Shown: piece by piece, positions 42,385 to 51,258 of the stretch
Numbering within the stretch: position 1 is the stretch's first letter
Layout of the letters: the number at the start of each line of letters is the position of its first letter
Assembly: GCA_018335335.1 (NCBI GenBank)
Contig: JAGXKG010000001.1
Location: 1-64,000, forward strand
DNA from: Candidatus Thorarchaeota archaeon
Lineage (GTDB): Archaea > Asgardarchaeota > Thorarchaeia > Thorarchaeales > Thorarchaeaceae
Length of the DNA: 64,000 nt
Direction: 5' to 3'
Program-made: the position numbers and the translations under genes
The notes under the pieces: model-generated
The model's input: only the letters and a program-made list of their open reading frames with translations
What the model was told of the DNA's origin: nothing
The model's database searches: none

Positions 42385-43947
42385 TCATTCTTCATCCTTG
42401 CCTTCGGATAGCCGCTCCTGAAACATCCTCCAAGACAGTGTGAGGGTCCTTGGATGAGCGGCACGATACTCGTCTAACTTTCTAAATGCAGTCGAGTGTG
42501 GTGCGTTCTTAACTTTCTCAGGTGTCTCATAGGCCTCTTTGGAAATGGTTTCCATAGCATCTATGAAGGTGTCAAGCTCTTCTTTGGATTCGGTTTCAGT
42601 TGGCTCAATCATAAGAGCCTCGTCAACAATCTGAGGGAAATATACGGTAGGTGCATGCACACCAAAATCAAGAAGGCGCTTTCCAATGTGCATAGCTGTG
42701 ACACCAGTATCTTCCTTCATCTGTTGTGCGGAAATTACACACTCATGTTTTCGAGGTGCCTCTTGAGAATATGGCAGATTGAAGCCTTTGATTTGCTCAA
42801 TGCGTCTGGCACAGTAGTTGGCATTCAGAACAGCAAGTTTCGATGCTTCTTTCAGGCCATCAGCACCAAGGGCATAGATATACGAATAGGCTCGTACAAG
42901 AACACCGAAGTTCCCAAAGAAACCATGAACCTTCCCAATCGAGTTAGGATAATCGTAGTCCAAATCAAAACTGTCGTCTGCTTTCCTCACGATGCGTGGA
43001 ATGGGTAAGAATTCAGTAAGCTTGTCCTTCACACCAACTGGCCCCGCACCCGGCCCGCCACCTCCATGAGGGGTAGACATCGTCTTGTGCAGGTTCATGT
43101 GAACAATATCAAATCCCATATCTCCAGGTCTTGTCATTCCCATAATCGCATTCAAGTTTGCACCATCATAGTACAACAACCCCCCTTCGTCATGAACTGT
43201 AGCTGCTATTTCATTGATGTCTTTCTCAAACATACCGATAGTATTGGGATTCGTTAGCATCAAGCCCGCTGTTTTGGGCCCTACGGCGTCTTTCAATGCG
43301 TCCGTATCAACTAATCCTTCATCACTCGAAGGTAGTACAACTACATCAAATCCAGCCATAGCAGCTGAGGCGGGGTTAGTTCCATGAGCAGAATCGGGTG
43401 TGAGTATTTCAGACCGTTGCTCGCATTCCTCTGTTACACAACGGTGATATTCTCTGATAAGCAGCACACCCGTTAGTTCACCTTGAGCGCCTGCCGCTGG
43501 CTGTAATGTAACTGCATCCATACCAGAAAGCTCACCTAACCATTTCTCAAGCTCCCACATCAGTTCCAAAGCACCTTGAGCAGTTGATGTATCCTGGAAT
43601 GGATGGATGTTGGCGAATCCACTTAACGAGGCGCATCGATTATTGATAACGGGATTGTATTTCATAGTACAGCTGCCTAGTGGATAGGTGCCCTGAGTTA
43701 CCGAGTAGTTCATCTGTGAGAGACGAGTAAAATGCCTGACTATCTGTGGCTCCGAGATTTCAGGGATTTCAGGACGCTTTTTCCGTTGCATCTTTTGAGA
43801 AACCAATTCATCAACTGATCCTAGTTCTTTAACGATTTCATCTTCTGGGGCAGGGAACCAGTGACCAACTTGACCAGGGGTAGACTTTTCAAAAAGAAGG
43901 GGAACGTCCCATTTTGCTTGCCTGTAACGTCGTTCGTCTTTCGTCAA
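42385..43947 (-). CDS. gcvPB: Glycine dehydrogenase (decarboxylating) subunit 2
   Basis: A 520-residue PLP enzyme, the beta half of the split P-protein. The Lys that binds PLP is in MNLHKTMSTPHGGGGPGAGP; LGSCTMKYNP near residue 92 and HGTNPASAAMAGFDVV are further family motifs. With GcvPA it decarboxylates glycine and passes the aminomethyl group to the H-protein. TTG start at 43947, two bases after the gcvPA stop. The other cleavage system genes are not in the window. Confidence 0.95.
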   Translation of the reverse strand: MTKDERRYRQAKWDVPLLFEKSTPGQVGHWFPAPEDEIVKELGSVDELVSQKMQRKKRPEIPEISEPQIVRHFTRLSQMNYSVTQGTYPLGSCTMKYNPVINNRCASLSGFANIHPFQDTSTAQGALELMWELEKWLGELSGMDAVTLQPAAGAQGELTGVLLIREYHRCVTEECEQRSEILTPDSAHGTNPASAAMAGFDVVVLPSSDEGLVDTDALKDAVGPKTAGLMLTNPNTIGMFEKDINEIAATVHDEGGLLYYDGANLNAIMGMTRPGDMGFDIVHMNLHKTMSTPHGGGGPGAGPVGVKDKLTEFLPIPRIVRKADDSFDLDYDYPNSIGKVHGFFGNFGVLVRAYSYIYALGADGLKEASKLAVLNANYCARRIEQIKGFNLPYSQEAPRKHECVISAQQMKEDTGVTAMHIGKRLLDFGVHAPTVYFPQIVDEALMIEPTETESKEELDTFIDAMETISKEAYETPEKVKNAPHSTAFRKLDEYRAAHPRTLTLSWRMFQERLSEGKDEE

Positions 43948-43949
43948 TA

Positions 43950-45347
43950 CTATGCAACCTCCTCAGTGAGATATTCTTCAACAGTTTGGACAAACTCGTC
44001 GATATCCTGTTTTCCATGCAGTTCGGTAACGCAAACCAGAAGAGATTCACCAAAATCTAGAAAACTATCAGAAAGAATGGTACCTCCGTGAATGCCCCGT
44101 TCCAACAATCCTTCATGCACATCTTGTGCCGTAGTATCCTCAAACCTGACAGCAAATTCCTTCCAAATTGAAGAACCAACCGCTGGAGCTACTATCCCAT
44201 CTAGTTCATTCAGCTTCTTGGCTGCATAATTTGAGTTGTATGCGATAGTTTTGCTCATTTGTTCCAAACCGGATGGTGTAAGAAGTGAAAGGTATACTGC
44301 TGCAGTTACTGCCATGAGGGCTTGGTTGGAACAGATGTTACTCGTTGCTTTTTCTCTTCTAATATGCTGCTCCCTAGGAACCAGTGTTAGGACGTATCCG
44401 CGTTCATAAGGTTCCTCCTTGGTCTGGGTTAGACCAACAAGGCGACCAGGCATCTGACGTATCACCCTTGTTCCCCCCTTGCAGCCGAATATCCCAAGCA
44501 ACGGTCCTCCACATGAAACAGGTGAGCCAAGAGGCTGGCCTTCTGCAATCACTATATCAGCATCATAGTCTCCCGGAGGGCGGATAAGACCTAGTGAAAG
44601 AACATCCACACCTGCAATGAGTAGCGATCCAGCGTCATGAACTAATCTATTAATCTGGTCCACCTGCTCTTCAATAACGCCCAAGTACGATGGATTCTCG
44701 ATGTAGACCCCCGAAACGTCATCATCAAGCTTGGATTCCAAATCATCAAGTATCAGCAGCCCACTTCTGGGATCTTGTTTCACTTTCTCAACTTCGATAT
44801 CCGCAGATTCACAATATGTTTCCAGAACGGTTAGGTGGTTTGGGTTCATATATTGTGGAACAAGAAACCGTGGACGTTTCCGCTTTATTCGAGAGGCCAT
44901 CCTCGCAGCCTCACCAAGTGCACTGGCCATATCATACATACTACTATTGACAACATCGATTTGTAGAATCTCTGCGAGTAGGCTTTGATACTCAAAGAGG
45001 GTCTGTAACATACCTTGACTTATTTCTGCTTGGTAGCTTGTGTAGGAAGTGACAAACTCCGAACGGTTGGCCAAAGCAGGAACAGCTGCTGGTATGTAAT
45101 GCATATCTACGCCAGCCCCCAGAAAGTTCTTACCATCTGTTGGTTCTACATTCTTGGAGGCAAGTGCCGTCAATCTGCGGTTTACTTCTTCTTCAGTATG
45201 TGATGTGGGCAAGTCCAACTTTTTCTCAAGCCGGAATTTCTCAGGTATATCACTGAAAAGACTTCCAATGTTCTTGGCACCGATAGATTCTAGCATCTCT
45301 TTCTTGTTTTCTACAGTTATAGGAAGGTATGGATGATTTCGTTTCAT
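43950..45347 (-). CDS. gcvPA: Glycine dehydrogenase (decarboxylating) subunit 1
   Basis: A 465-residue protein, the alpha half of the split P-protein: YLPITVENKKEMLESIGAKNI, SLFSDIPEKFRL, FLGAGVDMHYIPAAVP, SYQAEISQGMLQTLFEYQSLLAEI and GGPLLGIFGCK. It has the fold of a PLP enzyme but no catalytic Lys; the active site is made with GcvPB. The ATG follows GGAGG. It is the first gene of a two-gene operon. Confidence 0.95.
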   Translation of the reverse strand: MKRNHPYLPITVENKKEMLESIGAKNIGSLFSDIPEKFRLEKKLDLPTSHTEEEVNRRLTALASKNVEPTDGKNFLGAGVDMHYIPAAVPALANRSEFVTSYTSYQAEISQGMLQTLFEYQSLLAEILQIDVVNSSMYDMASALGEAARMASRIKRKRPRFLVPQYMNPNHLTVLETYCESADIEVEKVKQDPRSGLLILDDLESKLDDDVSGVYIENPSYLGVIEEQVDQINRLVHDAGSLLIAGVDVLSLGLIRPPGDYDADIVIAEGQPLGSPVSCGGPLLGIFGCKGGTRVIRQMPGRLVGLTQTKEEPYERGYVLTLVPREQHIRREKATSNICSNQALMAVTAAVYLSLLTPSGLEQMSKTIAYNSNYAAKKLNELDGIVAPAVGSSIWKEFAVRFEDTTAQDVHEGLLERGIHGGTILSDSFLDFGESLLVCVTELHGKQDIDEFVQTVEEYLTEEVA

Positions 45348-45493: not shown

Positions 45494-45814
45494 GTGAAGC
45501 GTTGGCTTATGGACATCCTAGCATGTCCAGTTAAACAGTGTAGAAGCAGTCTCAATCTCAAAGTACTCGAGTCACATATGATTCAAACCGATGAGGGGGA
45601 AATCGAAGAAATTGATGCTGCACTTATCACGTGTCCCAAGTGTGGGCGCTGGTATCCAGTTATCGATGGGATAGCATGTATGCTTCCTGACAATCTTAGA
45701 AAAGAGGGAAAACAGAAAACTGAGGAAACCGCATTTCTGAAGGAATGGGAGGAGAAAATCCCTGCTGAAATCATTGCTGAGGGAATACCATTTGGATTAG
45801 AGAGAGAAGAATGA
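45494..45814 (+). CDS. Trm112-like methyltransferase-activating zinc protein
   Basis: A 106-residue protein. MDILACPVKQC near the start and ALITCPKCGRWYPVIDGIACML (about 43-64) match the Trm112/YcaR family, whose members bind and stabilise class I methyltransferases for tRNA, rRNA and release factor. The final 35 residues are charged and helical. The first Cys pair is C-x4-C (CPVKQC), a wider spacing than the usual C-x2-C. The GTG start at 45494 follows AGGAGAAACC. Confidence 0.85.
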   Translation: MKRWLMDILACPVKQCRSSLNLKVLESHMIQTDEGEIEEIDAALITCPKCGRWYPVIDGIACMLPDNLRKEGKQKTEETAFLKEWEEKIPAEIIAEGIPFGLEREE

Positions 45815-47075: not shown

Positions 47076-50051
47076 TTACATTTCTCCTGCTGCTTCTTCA
47101 ATGGATAGGAGAATCCTATCTATCGCGCTCGTGGCTTCCTTTATTGTCTTCAAGTAGTCTTGTCGCGACTTCTCAAATGCAGCTCTGCTAATGCGCTGCT
47201 TCTTCTTCCTCCGAAGTAGTTGTCGCAATCCAGCCTTGGCCCCTTCAACTTTCTCGTTTTCCATCTCGAGTTGCGCAATCATATCACGATACTTGGAGCC
47301 ATGAGAAATCAGCTCATCCTTCACCGATGGAAGCTCACTGTCTATGTCCTCAAGCTTGGACTTGATGTCTTTTTCGCGAATCATGTATTCTTTCTTAGAC
47401 ACTTTCCCTCTTCTTCTTGAGGCTTGAAGCTTCTCCAAGTCCATCTCAAGCGCCGTCTTCCTCGAATACATATCCGCAAACTCTCTGAGGAGTTCGGGTG
47501 GAGCTCCAACTTGTCTGCGTACTTTTTCAGTTGATTTGCCTACGACAGGAACGGGACCCTTGGGTCGTATCTTGCGATAGGATACATAGGCCGTGGCAAC
47601 CAAACCAATGATGAATGCGAATATCAGTGGCCTCGCTACAATTCCAATAGCCAAGTTATACACAAGTCGTACTTCAGGTGGATTATACTGTGTTGTATTG
47701 AAAACCGTGTAGCGAAGTGTTGTATCAAAGGCACCGTAAAGCAATCGGTAGTTTCCTGAGGTATCAACAACTGAGATTGAAGTAGAGAGGACAAGGTCAA
47801 CTGTGTGTTTCTCTACAAGAATATGGCTCAAAGTACCCATAGGTAGTTCAAGTAGACTTCCACCGGGGGAGGAACTTGTATACGCATCCAGTTTCACGAA
47901 ATAATCAATTTTGAAAGTATAATCCCACCCAGGTTTGAACTTACCCTCACCAAAACGGTCGCTCTGTAGATTTATCGTTAGTTCGACCGATTCATTGAAC
48001 TCGTGCTCTGCAGTTTTTTGCGAATCTGCAAGTATGCCTACTTTGTCATGAATTCGAATACCTGACGCGTAGGCGGGAATTTCGAAAGCTAGTTTATCCT
48101 CGTTTGCGGTTCCGATATTGTGTATTGAAATCTCTTCGGTGTAGACCAACCAACCCCAAGAGTTCAATTTCACGTTTGTACTCCGATCCGCTGTCAGATA
48201 TGGTGTATAGGAGCTCATGTTCAGAGTGAACATCTCACAAGTCATTGGTTCCAGGTTCTCAGTAGTATCATCGACTCTATCACTAGCCAAAGAATCTCCA
48301 CTTCGGAGATTCGTGGTCAAGCTGGCCCGTCTCAGAACATAAGGAACAACGGGATATCTCAAAAAGCTAAGTTCGAAGATATTTCCCTCCTCCTCGAGAA
48401 ATGTGTGAAGGGAATGGAAGTACATCACAGATGTGAAGTTGTATATCTCTTCGACAGAAACAGGCTCAAAGAAATGCAGCCTCCAATGCATGAGATCCGC
48501 TTCATTAGATACTCGAACTATTTCGATTTCACGATCATTTGCATCGGTAGCTGAGATTGAAAGGAAATAAGGCTCCCATCTAGTGGGTAAGAACACCTCA
48601 ATCGAGTTGATGGGGGCTGATCCGTTATTCCTGACAGAGAAGGTGTCCTCCACCTTTGTCTGATGGTGCTCCAAGGTACTAACGGTTCGTGATACCCTCA
48701 ATCGCATCCCAAGCAGAGGAATCTGTGGCCAGTAGAATATCACATCAACTGATGCAATACTAGATACATTGGATGCATCTGTAGCATTGAACCAGATAGT
48801 ATGTGTTCCATTATCATAATCCGATAGGTCAGTCTTGGATTCCCAGAAATCAGACTTGAAATTGCGATAGAATTCAATCCATTCTCCATCATCAACTCTG
48901 TAGTAGCATCTTCGGACTAATCCATCATCGGACGCGTTCACCTTCAAGGTTGTAACTAAGCCAAGTATTGCATTCGGTTCAGGATTGATTATCTCCAAAA
49001 CGGGTACGGTGTTTGATATAATTTGCATATTTAGTGGCTTTGTCCATTCTGTATGCTGAACAGGAAGCGAACTAAAATCATCATTCGGTCCACGAAGAAG
49101 AACAAAAGGAAACCGTGCATCTGTCGTGTTATACAAAGGAATGTCATAAGGATCTGTGCTATTCATCCGAACGAAGTATTCAACCTGTGTTGTTCCGCCA
49201 ACCAGACTTGCATTTGCGGAGAGTATTCTACTTTGGTTGGTGTCTGGAAGATGCTGAAAAGTACTGATACCATACTCATCACTGTACTCGATTGAACTCT
49301 GGTTCGCAGGACTATCAAAAATGTAATTGATACGTCTTAGTGTGATAACGTATTCCAGGTCCTTTCCGTACATGGGATGTCTAGGGTCATTATAGGCTTT
49401 TTCGGCTGGAATTATGAAATGGCGCTGTTCGCCAATACGCATTCCGATGATTTGGTCGATGTAAGGATTGAGAAGAGCGTTCTTTTCAGCAACTTCGGGC
49501 CTCAAATCGCCAATAGGGGTTTCAGAGTCATCACCTGGTGCACTTCCTTCTTCCAGAAGAGTTCCATTCCGAGTATAGAGCTTGTAATCTACAGTGACCA
49601 CATCATTTGGGGTTACCCGCTGATAGCTCGATAATGGGGTACCAGTAGCAGTTCCATATACTAAGTCACTACCATTGAGACCATCTGTACTGAATTTGCC
49701 GGTTTGATTCTTCCATCCAAGTGCCAGCCAACCAGATGTTGAGGCTGACAATCCAACGTAGAGAATGGACGAATCATGCTCAAAAAATACCGTCATACCG
49801 GTTGCGGAATCAGTATAGTTTCGGCTATACTCTGTTGGGTCTATGATTCCATCTGCATACCCGTAGTGGGTATCTACATACGGAATCGATAGGTTCACGG
49901 GGGAATCCGCAGCCGATGCGAAATCTACAGGTTCATCATCAAACGCGGAATTATCCCAGCCGTGCGGATGAGACATGGTTGTCGCCATGCTGCTGGCAAA
50001 GAGTAATACCAGTAGTGCGAGTGTCACCGACCGTCTATGGAACATGCTCAA
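47076..50051 (-). CDS. Ribophorin I-like membrane protein fused to DOMON-like and FKBP domains
   Basis: A 991-residue secreted or membrane protein. A signal peptide (1-27) is followed by a DOMON-like domain (about 65-140; ILYVGLSASTSGWLALGWK), an FKBP-type peptidyl-prolyl isomerase domain (about 145-245; VTVDYKLYTRNGTLLEEGS, IGMRIGEQRHFIIPAEKAY), an Ig-like domain (350-440), then a region (452-800) that resembles ribophorin I (OST1): RTVSTLEHHQTKVEDTFSVRNNG and TPYLTADRSTNVKLNSWGW, followed by TEEISIHNIG. It has one membrane span (800-824) and a basic, coiled-coil cytosolic tail (850-991), like ribophorin I. Many N-x-S/T sequons lie outside. TTG at 50051 or ATG at 50045 starts it. I infer an oligosaccharyltransferase-associated role; the fusion to FKBP would couple folding to glycosylation. 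Confidence 0.75.
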   Translation of the reverse strand: MSMFHRRSVTLALLVLLFASSMATTMSHPHGWDNSAFDDEPVDFASAADSPVNLSIPYVDTHYGYADGIIDPTEYSRNYTDSATGMTVFFEHDSSILYVGLSASTSGWLALGWKNQTGKFSTDGLNGSDLVYGTATGTPLSSYQRVTPNDVVTVDYKLYTRNGTLLEEGSAPGDDSETPIGDLRPEVAEKNALLNPYIDQIIGMRIGEQRHFIIPAEKAYNDPRHPMYGKDLEYVITLRRINYIFDSPANQSSIEYSDEYGISTFQHLPDTNQSRILSANASLVGGTTQVEYFVRMNSTDPYDIPLYNTTDARFPFVLLRGPNDDFSSLPVQHTEWTKPLNMQIISNTVPVLEIINPEPNAILGLVTTLKVNASDDGLVRRCYYRVDDGEWIEFYRNFKSDFWESKTDLSDYDNGTHTIWFNATDASNVSSIASVDVIFYWPQIPLLGMRLRVSRTVSTLEHHQTKVEDTFSVRNNGSAPINSIEVFLPTRWEPYFLSISATDANDREIEIVRVSNEADLMHWRLHFFEPVSVEEIYNFTSVMYFHSLHTFLEEEGNIFELSFLRYPVVPYVLRRASLTTNLRSGDSLASDRVDDTTENLEPMTCEMFTLNMSSYTPYLTADRSTNVKLNSWGWLVYTEEISIHNIGTANEDKLAFEIPAYASGIRIHDKVGILADSQKTAEHEFNESVELTINLQSDRFGEGKFKPGWDYTFKIDYFVKLDAYTSSSPGGSLLELPMGTLSHILVEKHTVDLVLSTSISVVDTSGNYRLLYGAFDTTLRYTVFNTTQYNPPEVRLVYNLAIGIVARPLIFAFIIGLVATAYVSYRKIRPKGPVPVVGKSTEKVRRQVGAPPELLREFADMYSRKTALEMDLEKLQASRRRGKVSKKEYMIREKDIKSKLEDIDSELPSVKDELISHGSKYRDMIAQLEMENEKVEGAKAGLRQLLRRKKKQRISRAAFEKSRQDYLKTIKEATSAIDRILLSIEEAAGEM

Positions 50052-50223: not shown

Positions 50224-51258
50224 GTGAGGTATGAGCTCTTGTTCACCATTCTGATAGCATTTCTCATATCGATGATAGTTATGATGGTGTTTCTACCAAT
50301 CACGATAGAAATGTTAAAGGAAAAGAACAAACTAGCTGAAGACGTTCACAAGAAAGACAAGCAGATGATTCCCAAAGGTGGAGGATTTATTCTACTGTTC
50401 GCTATTGTCGCCTCGTTGTTAATTATTGTCGGTTACTCCACATTCCTCATGCAGAATGCGGTTAATCCGGCCATACTTGGTGCATTGGTATCGATATTAA
50501 TGGCAGGAATGGTCGGCCTCTTGGATGATAACCTAGATTTCAGGGATAGAGCAAAAATCGTTTTGCCCCTCGTAGCGTCCATTCCCCTTATGGCACTCAA
50601 TGTCGGAACAACAACAATGTCGATACCACTCATAGGAGATATCAATCTGCAGTTGGCGTATCCATTAGTAGTGGTGCCTCTCATGACGACATTCATCGTT
50701 GATAGTACAAACATGTATGGCGGGATGAATGGACTCGAAACTGGACTCAGTATCGTGAATTCATCAGCAATAGTACTCTATACATTATTGACCCCAATAC
50801 TCACAGGAAAGGTCCTCGTTCAACATCAAATGGATGGAGCAACAATTGCAGCTGCATTATGTGGGGCTTCGGTTGTATTCTTTGTATTCAACAAGTACCC
50901 AGCAAAAATCTTGCCAGGAGATGTTGGAAGATTGCCAATAGGAGCAGCTATGGCCGCCTCCTTAATCATAGGTAATATGGATCGACTAGCTGTGATACTG
51001 TACTTGCCTTTCTTGCTGAATTTCATGATGTATCTTGTATATAGACTGAAAGTAAAGAGAACAGGAATGGATTACCAGAAATTCGCAAAGCCAAAGGAAG
51101 ATGGTAGTCTTGCTGTTATTGGTCCATATACCATGTATTGGTTGCTCCCCCACTTGTTTGGAAATGTAACCGAGAAGAAGAATGTATCTTTCTTGATTGT
51201 TTTGCAGGCCATATTAGCGTACGGAGGGGTCATTCTCTTACTTGTGGGTGGAATCTAA
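50224..51258 (+). CDS. GlcNAc-1-phosphate transferase-like enzyme (Alg7/AglH, glycosyltransferase family 4)
   Basis: A 344-residue polytopic membrane enzyme (about 10 helices). KKDKQMIPKGGGFILLF near residue 40, GMVGLLDDNLDFRDRAK, the Asp-rich DSTNMYGGMNGLETG and KYPAKILPGDVGRLPIG are the family's nucleotide/metal and substrate motifs. It transfers sugar-1-phosphate from a UDP-sugar to a polyprenyl (dolichyl) phosphate, the first step in N-glycan assembly. It is divergent from the ribophorin I-like gene with 172 bases between the two starts. The GTG start is uncertain; a TTG at 50239 is an alternative. Confidence 0.88.
   Translation: MRYELLFTILIAFLISMIVMMVFLPITIEMLKEKNKLAEDVHKKDKQMIPKGGGFILLFAIVASLLIIVGYSTFLMQNAVNPAILGALVSILMAGMVGLLDDNLDFRDRAKIVLPLVASIPLMALNVGTTTMSIPLIGDINLQLAYPLVVVPLMTTFIVDSTNMYGGMNGLETGLSIVNSSAIVLYTLLTPILTGKVLVQHQMDGATIAAALCGASVVFFVFNKYPAKILPGDVGRLPIGAAMAASLIIGNMDRLAVILYLPFLLNFMMYLVYRLKVKRTGMDYQKFAKPKEDGSLAVIGPYTMYWLLPHLFGNVTEKKNVSFLIVLQAILAYGGVILLLVGGI

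Follow-up and report, generated by a model that had tools for sequence, protein, structure and literature searches.

Which protein is encoded by the long frame at positions 47076-50051, on the reverse strand of the 64,000-nucleotide stretch of Thorarchaeal DNA analysed here (the window), and is the union of an oligosaccharyltransferase (OST) subunit with FKBP and DOMON domains that it seems to contain a genuine one? Asgard OST1 (ribophorin I) is already known (PMC10307638, PMC11417166, PMC8813620), and the fusion bears on the question of what roles eukaryote-like translocon parts such as OST1 have in Asgard archaea before any ER. Its fusion to FKBP and DOMON is apparently undescribed, and we found no description of an OST1-FKBP or OST1-DOMON fusion in the open-licence literature on the Asgard translocon, Thorarchaeal ribophorin or Asgard DOMON. 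The frame was read without an internal stop, and its layout from N to C terminus is a signal peptide, a DOMON domain with an inserted FKBP, a Big_7 Ig-like domain, an OST1 fold, a membrane span and a cytosolic four-helix bundle. The features of the gene and of two neighbours are as follows.

47076..50051, reverse strand: whole gene, DOMON(FKBP)-Ig-OST1 fusion of 991 aa with a TTG start (open reading frame; full-length homologues in the same family)
49971..50051, reverse strand: signal peptide, residues 1-27 (hydrophobic segment 8-27; helix 4-19 in the model)
49623..49901, reverse strand: DOMON first half, residues 51-143 (Pfam DOMON positions 7-76; alignment to uninterrupted Asgard DOMON proteins; column counts)
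49320..49622, reverse strand: FKBP domain, residues 144-244, inserted in DOMON (Pfam FKBP_C; model; best PDB matches all FKBPs; active-site map)
49017..49319, reverse strand: DOMON second half, residues 245-345 (directly follows the first half in uninterrupted Asgard DOMONs; paralogue match)
48741..49004, reverse strand: Big_7 Ig-like domain, residues 350-437 (Pfam PF17957)
48252..48710, reverse strand: OST1 beta domain 1, residues 448-600 (family profile to human and yeast OST1; Foldseek to 8b6l_O and others)
47652..48251, reverse strand: OST1 beta domain 2, residues 601-800 (Pfam Ribophorin_I 653-761; family profile; Foldseek)
47568..47633, reverse strand: membrane span, residues 807-828 (hydropathy; helix in the model)
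47091..47498, reverse strand: cytosolic four-helix bundle, residues 852-987 (match to 8whn_A; four helices in the model)
50224..51258, forward strand: divergent neighbour, glycosyltransferase family 4 (MraY/Alg7-like sugar-phosphate transferase; Pfam PF00953, 2.3e-26; synteny)
45494..45814, forward strand: Trm112-like gene, conserved near OST1 (Pfam Trm112p, 4.8e-9; synteny)

The C-terminal half is an OST1 homologue

A preliminary description of this DNA had likened residues 452-800 to ribophorin I, and the family profile to human and yeast OST1, fold matches, synteny and distribution all bear the likeness out. Pfam Ribophorin_I (PF04597) matched the window protein alone at residues 653-761 with E 2.9e-5 and 23.8 bits against a cut-off of 25, and it matched 17 of the 28 members of the alignment, the best at 4.9e-32. 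A profile of these 28 Asgard relatives, which includes other Asgard OST1s besides the Thorarchaeal ones, matched human OST1 (6s7o_E) across its length (E 2.8e-43), the helix bundle of Lokiarchaeal OST1 (8whn; E 7.9e-36) and yeast OST1 (6c26; 1e-14), the following match reaching only 0.015. The same bundle, 8whn, was the one significant OST1 match of a Thorarchaeal-only profile (E 1.4e-10); what the preliminary description took for a basic coiled coil is a four-helix bundle. A six-frame Pfam Ribophorin_I scan of the genome of origin returned nothing at E 0.001, and it is uninformative, as the control genomes were silent too.

The proposed comparison with the OST1 structure points the same way. 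We modelled the 991-aa protein with AlphaFold2, using an input alignment that pooled other Asgard OST1s with Thorarchaeal sequences (pLDDT 80.9; mostly about 90 in the OST1 part), and the best seven Foldseek matches of this model in the PDB were all human or yeast OST1 (8b6l_O at E 7.8e-28; TM to target 0.51-0.66), whereas the next ones, to integrins, were weaker by almost eight orders of magnitude. Neither of the two outcomes that would have spoken against an OST1, no significant profile match or a structure unlike the OST1 fold, was thus observed. The single membrane span reported after the ribophorin I-like region is seen in hydropathy (around 796-828) and as helix 807-828 in the model, and the reported signal peptide in a hydrophobic N terminus at residues 8-27. 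Like human RPN1, yeast Ost1 and the OST1 of Lokiarchaeal MK-D1 (607 aa), the protein combines a pair of beta domains with a single membrane span and a four-helix bundle in the cytosol; yeast Ost1 differs in being a shorter chain whose match to the Thorarchaeal protein ends at the membrane span, and eukaryotic and MK-D1 OST1 are without the Thorarchaeal 450-residue DOMON(FKBP)-Ig extension. The helix bundles of MK-D1 and human OST1 bind the ribosome (PMC11417166).

Gene order lends positional support to OST1 orthology. Next to OST1 is the glycosyltransferase family 4 neighbour (on which NCBIfam MraY scores far below its cut-off); HD-domain, Trm112 and glycine-cleavage P genes follow on one flank and topoisomerase VI on the opposite one, an order that is kept across Thorarchaeota. 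Parts of it recur in other Asgard families, where OST1 is near Trm112 and the glycosyltransferase (L032, L035, L036, L039), the glycosyltransferase alone (L034) or a glycine-cleavage P pair (L028-L031, L033). Because profiles, fold matches of the AlphaFold model and gene order agree, we conclude that the C-terminal half is an OST1 homologue with the OST1 fold. It is the sole OST1 match detected in its genome, which also holds TRAP-beta-like matches and a single STT3 match (a 931-aa frame, C1:163690-166482) on the same contig, about 115-120 kb from OST1 and some 3.5 kb from an OST3/6-like gene. We also observed that glycine-cleavage genes lie beside OST genes twice in this genome, as a gcvP pair near OST1 (window positions 42385-45347; also in several other Asgard families) and as gcvT-gcvH between STT3 and OST3/6 (L081:5691-12505).

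Domain organisation of the N-terminal head

Both domains reported upstream of the OST1 part, DOMON and FKBP, are present, but the FKBP is nested in the DOMON instead of following it. Pfam FKBP_C (PF00254) matched residues 145-238 of the window protein at E 2.6e-5, above the Pfam cut-off, which settles the profile check proposed for residues 145-245, and it matched 30 of 30 relatives (best 3.4e-12). The N-terminal region was modelled as one confident unit (pLDDT 90.5, pTM 0.86), and the top 50 Foldseek matches of this model were all FKBPs, with no DOMON structure among them. Pfam DOMON matched the window protein weakly (E 0.0016-0.0032; about 19 bits against a cut-off of 32.7) and 12 of the 30 relatives (best 3.7e-6), and its positions 7-76 precede the FKBP in the window protein, while in a paralogue positions 67-117 follow it.

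The nesting was revealed by uninterrupted DOMON proteins of other Asgard genomes, which align to the two halves in order, only a short spacer apart, with E-values that refer to a small set of fetched sequences. In L101 the DOMON halves fall at 66-114 and 132-194 while the family profile skips from position 70 to 196, and the same jump is repeated in a second DOMON copy of that protein; L107, a Pfam-certified Asgard DOMON (6.7e-15), gave a continuous match to the family profile from which the FKBP had been excised (i-E 2.3e-11). Joining the DOMON halves in single sequences brought no clear rise in Pfam score (19.1 to 19.3 bits; 3 of 9 matched DOMON), and the placement of the FKBP within the DOMON, not beside it, is shown by the alignment to uninterrupted Asgard DOMONs and not by these joined-half scores. 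L101 (L101:1631-4714, G088:C202) is itself 1028 aa long and carries roughly three uninterrupted DOMON-like domains in tandem.

DOMON domains bind haem or sugars, and haem is no requirement for a DOMON, that of dopamine beta-hydroxylase likewise lacking it (PMC4846438). The Thorarchaeal domain shares a DOMON profile and a beta-rich predicted structure with the N-domain of that enzyme, the cytochrome domain of cellobiose dehydrogenase and CYBDOM, but unlike these it is interrupted by a complete FKBP and is without the haem-ligand Met. At the position of this residue (motif GLNGSD in the window protein), which we equated by eye with M90 of plant CYBDOM (PMC10784544), L or I is found in all 30 relatives, while H333 of the second half is kept in 27 of 30. 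The DOMON is thus likely without haem, and a haem-binding DOMON with a redox role is disfavoured. The preliminary description had not included the Big_7 domain, which Pfam PF17957 places at residues 350-419 (E 3.4e-7, 31.3 bits against a cut-off of 24.1; 1.8e-8 with a shorter query).

We mapped the FKBP pocket against FKBP12, with FKBP2 and an FKBP11 sequence confirmed against 9n9j_A alongside. In the alignment of 30 sequences, FKBP12 Y26 and Y82 are kept as Y156 and Y220 (30/30 each), and I56, W59 and F99 correspond to L194 (30/30), Y197 (29/30) and Y234 (28/30), whereas D37 is replaced by Q or E, F36 by L, I or V and F46 by a polar residue. Since D37 and F46 are replaced in this way, the site is partly degenerate and catalysis may be weak or absent. 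In a tree of 94 columns with a midpoint root, in which only the split counts and FKBP11 is not among the sequences, the inserted FKBPs are monophyletic (99/99), and a 99/98 branch unites them with Asgard SP-FKBP-TM proteins, apart from cytosolic Asgard FKBPs and human FKBP12 and FKBP2. No second extracytoplasmic FKBP was found in the genome of origin, its sole other FKBP match being of the long cytosolic archaeal type.

A 586-aa paralogue (L042:6129-7886, G019:C125) has a signal peptide, then DOMON(FKBP) and one or more Ig-like regions, and a membrane span at the C terminus, with no OST1 part. It is apparently a late duplicate of the head of the fusion; as an ancestral unfused module it was rejected, its FKBP falling inside the Thorarchaeal radiation beside the fusion of the same genome, with modest support (90/78).

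Distribution and conservation of the fusion

OST1 was found in 220 of the 228 genomes of the phylum. In the family to which the window belongs (Thorarchaeota), 44 of 47 genomes have an OST1 match; 39 of these 44 copies are full-length fusions and five are cut, four of the latter with N-terminal pieces on other contigs. The full-length homologues, of 47-92% identity, come from many genera, some of them in near-complete contigs, and have the same flanking genes. A search for the same architecture in other Asgard genomes had been proposed, and it returned these 39 Thorarchaeal copies and none elsewhere: among the matches listed for the 228 genomes, the OST1 frames of other families are of about 570-710 aa without the extension, and none outside the Thorarchaeal family has the N-terminal module. 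Evidence for this absence is strong, not exhaustive. A scan of named genomes gave only two matches, both Thorarchaeota, because it relied on exact peptide patterns. The fusion is therefore a fixed trait of the Thorarchaeal lineage. Its conservation across dozens of genomes, at identities as low as about 47%, together with the low dN/dS of every domain (0.03-0.16), confirms that it is real and not due to chance, and one gain on the Thorarchaeal stem is the parsimonious account. Two single-contig genomes (G021, G167) had no OST1 match at all and are possibly frameshifted assemblies.

Purifying selection acts in every domain (dN/dS 0.025-0.16 between the window species and its congener), with 0.16 in the FKBP and the lowest value, 0.025, in the helix bundle. 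Mean pairwise identity is 0.69 in the helix bundle, 0.63 in the DOMON first half, 0.58 in the FKBP and 0.45-0.48 in the OST1 beta domains.

Possible roles of the fused protein

OST1 is the non-catalytic OST subunit, which in relatives connects the enzyme with the translocating ribosome. We consider it probable, with due reserve, that Thorarchaeal OST1 retains its part at the translocon and has gained an extracytoplasmic folding or quality-control head. Of the four elements of this proposal the best supported is that the 991-aa protein would be the OST1 subunit of the single STT3-type OST detected in the cell, followed by a docking of the ribosome by the helix bundle, with the head on the outer side of the membrane, close to the translocon exit and to the active site of the OST; the full-length model (pTM 0.51) does not fix how head and OST body are arranged. 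Next in support, the FKBP would bind emerging chains at segments that contain proline and work as a prolyl isomerase or as a holding chaperone; folding and the accessibility of sequons would thereby be dealt with together. Least supported is that the DOMON might bind a partner protein or else a sugar, perhaps the newly attached glycan, in the manner of malectin, which in eukaryotes acts in glycoprotein quality control while bound to ribophorin I (PMC9144812). The likeness to the malectin-ribophorin I complex lies in a beta-sandwich that is linked to OST1 and is a candidate for carbohydrate binding, though for the Thorarchaeal domain such binding is only a possibility and a guess; malectin is encoded separately and belongs to a different family, and no homology to the Thorarchaeal DOMON is claimed. 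The fusion may thus join glycosylation with folding, as had been suggested, and a lineage-wide covalent OST1-FKBP fusion is natural evidence of functional coupling between the two outside the membrane.

The coupling was apparently reached independently of the human FKBP11-OST-A arrangement reported in 2025. FKBP11 (PDB 9n9j), which ranks ninth among the Foldseek matches of the N-terminal model, is recruited to the OST-A/Sec61 translocon; its authors regard it as an adaptor rather than an isomerase, its nominal catalytic site being buried by CCDC134, and argue against a role as nascent-chain isomerase (PMC12804085). Both proteins would place an extracytoplasmic FKBP beside the OST at a ribosome-bound translocon, which is known for FKBP11 and proposed here for the Thorarchaeal protein. 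The comparison is of working alone, since FKBP11 is a separate single-span protein (SP-FKBP-TM-basic tail) and the Thorarchaeal FKBP an insert in an OST1 fusion. A bolder version of the folding head, which we put forward tentatively and would not favour as it stands, is that of a co-translocational machine in one polypeptide, in which a cytosolic ribosome dock and an OST subunit are combined, outside the membrane, with a DOMON that reads glycans and encloses an FKBP chaperone, the head having been recruited to OST1 at the membrane of an ER-less cell as an independent parallel of FKBP11 and malectin.

The main rival to a folding head is an adaptor without catalysis, or a structural spacer, whose FKBP and DOMON would not act on prolines or glycans but would bind a partner, be it an S-layer protein, a factor specific to certain clients or another subunit of the translocon; human FKBP11 is a ribosome-binding adaptor with a buried site (PMC12804085). 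The loss of the FKBP12 D37 and F46 positions and the missing haem-ligand Met (30/30) also speak for an adaptor, but most aromatic or hydrophobic positions of the FKBP pocket are invariant or nearly so in the 30 sequences, and purifying selection acts on the domain (dN/dS 0.16). Moreover, the position equivalent to W59 of FKBP12 is variable among FKBPs regarded as active, such as SlyD, and we hold the adaptor to be a possible but somewhat unlikely account of the head.

A descendant of OST1 that has left the OST and serves as a stand-alone Thorarchaeal surface protein would fit the OST1 beta domains being less conserved (0.45-0.48) than the DOMON first half, the FKBP and the helix bundle. It is nevertheless improbable, as the genome has no other OST1 match, OST1 has kept its place beside a gene of lipid-linked-sugar type, the ribosome-binding bundle is the most constrained part, and STT3 and OST3/6-like genes are present. 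An artefact of assembly or binning can practically be dismissed: the genomes, as far as the named ones show, are metagenome-assembled, but recurrence in 39 genomes of many genera, with stop-free full-length frames and the same flanking genes, refutes it.

The fusion offers protein parts that can be tested, namely the soluble head (residues about 51-445), the OST body and the ribosome-binding tail. Separate SP-FKBP-TM proteins, of about 180-260 aa and many with a cytosolic zinc-ribbon or basic tail, are encoded in several other Asgard families (L082:1216-1890, L085:64-705, L086:908-1669, L087:899-1576, L088:994-1530, L089:637-1338, L090-L092). Some of them (for example L082, L085 and L087) have the same FKBP subtype as the fusion, with a YT.P.H.LYG-like motif, and are likewise extracytoplasmic and membrane-anchored, but they are stand-alone proteins (about 160-260 aa in this comparison) without DOMON, Ig or OST1 parts. 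With the layout of human FKBP11, the separate Asgard proteins are candidate translocon FKBPs.
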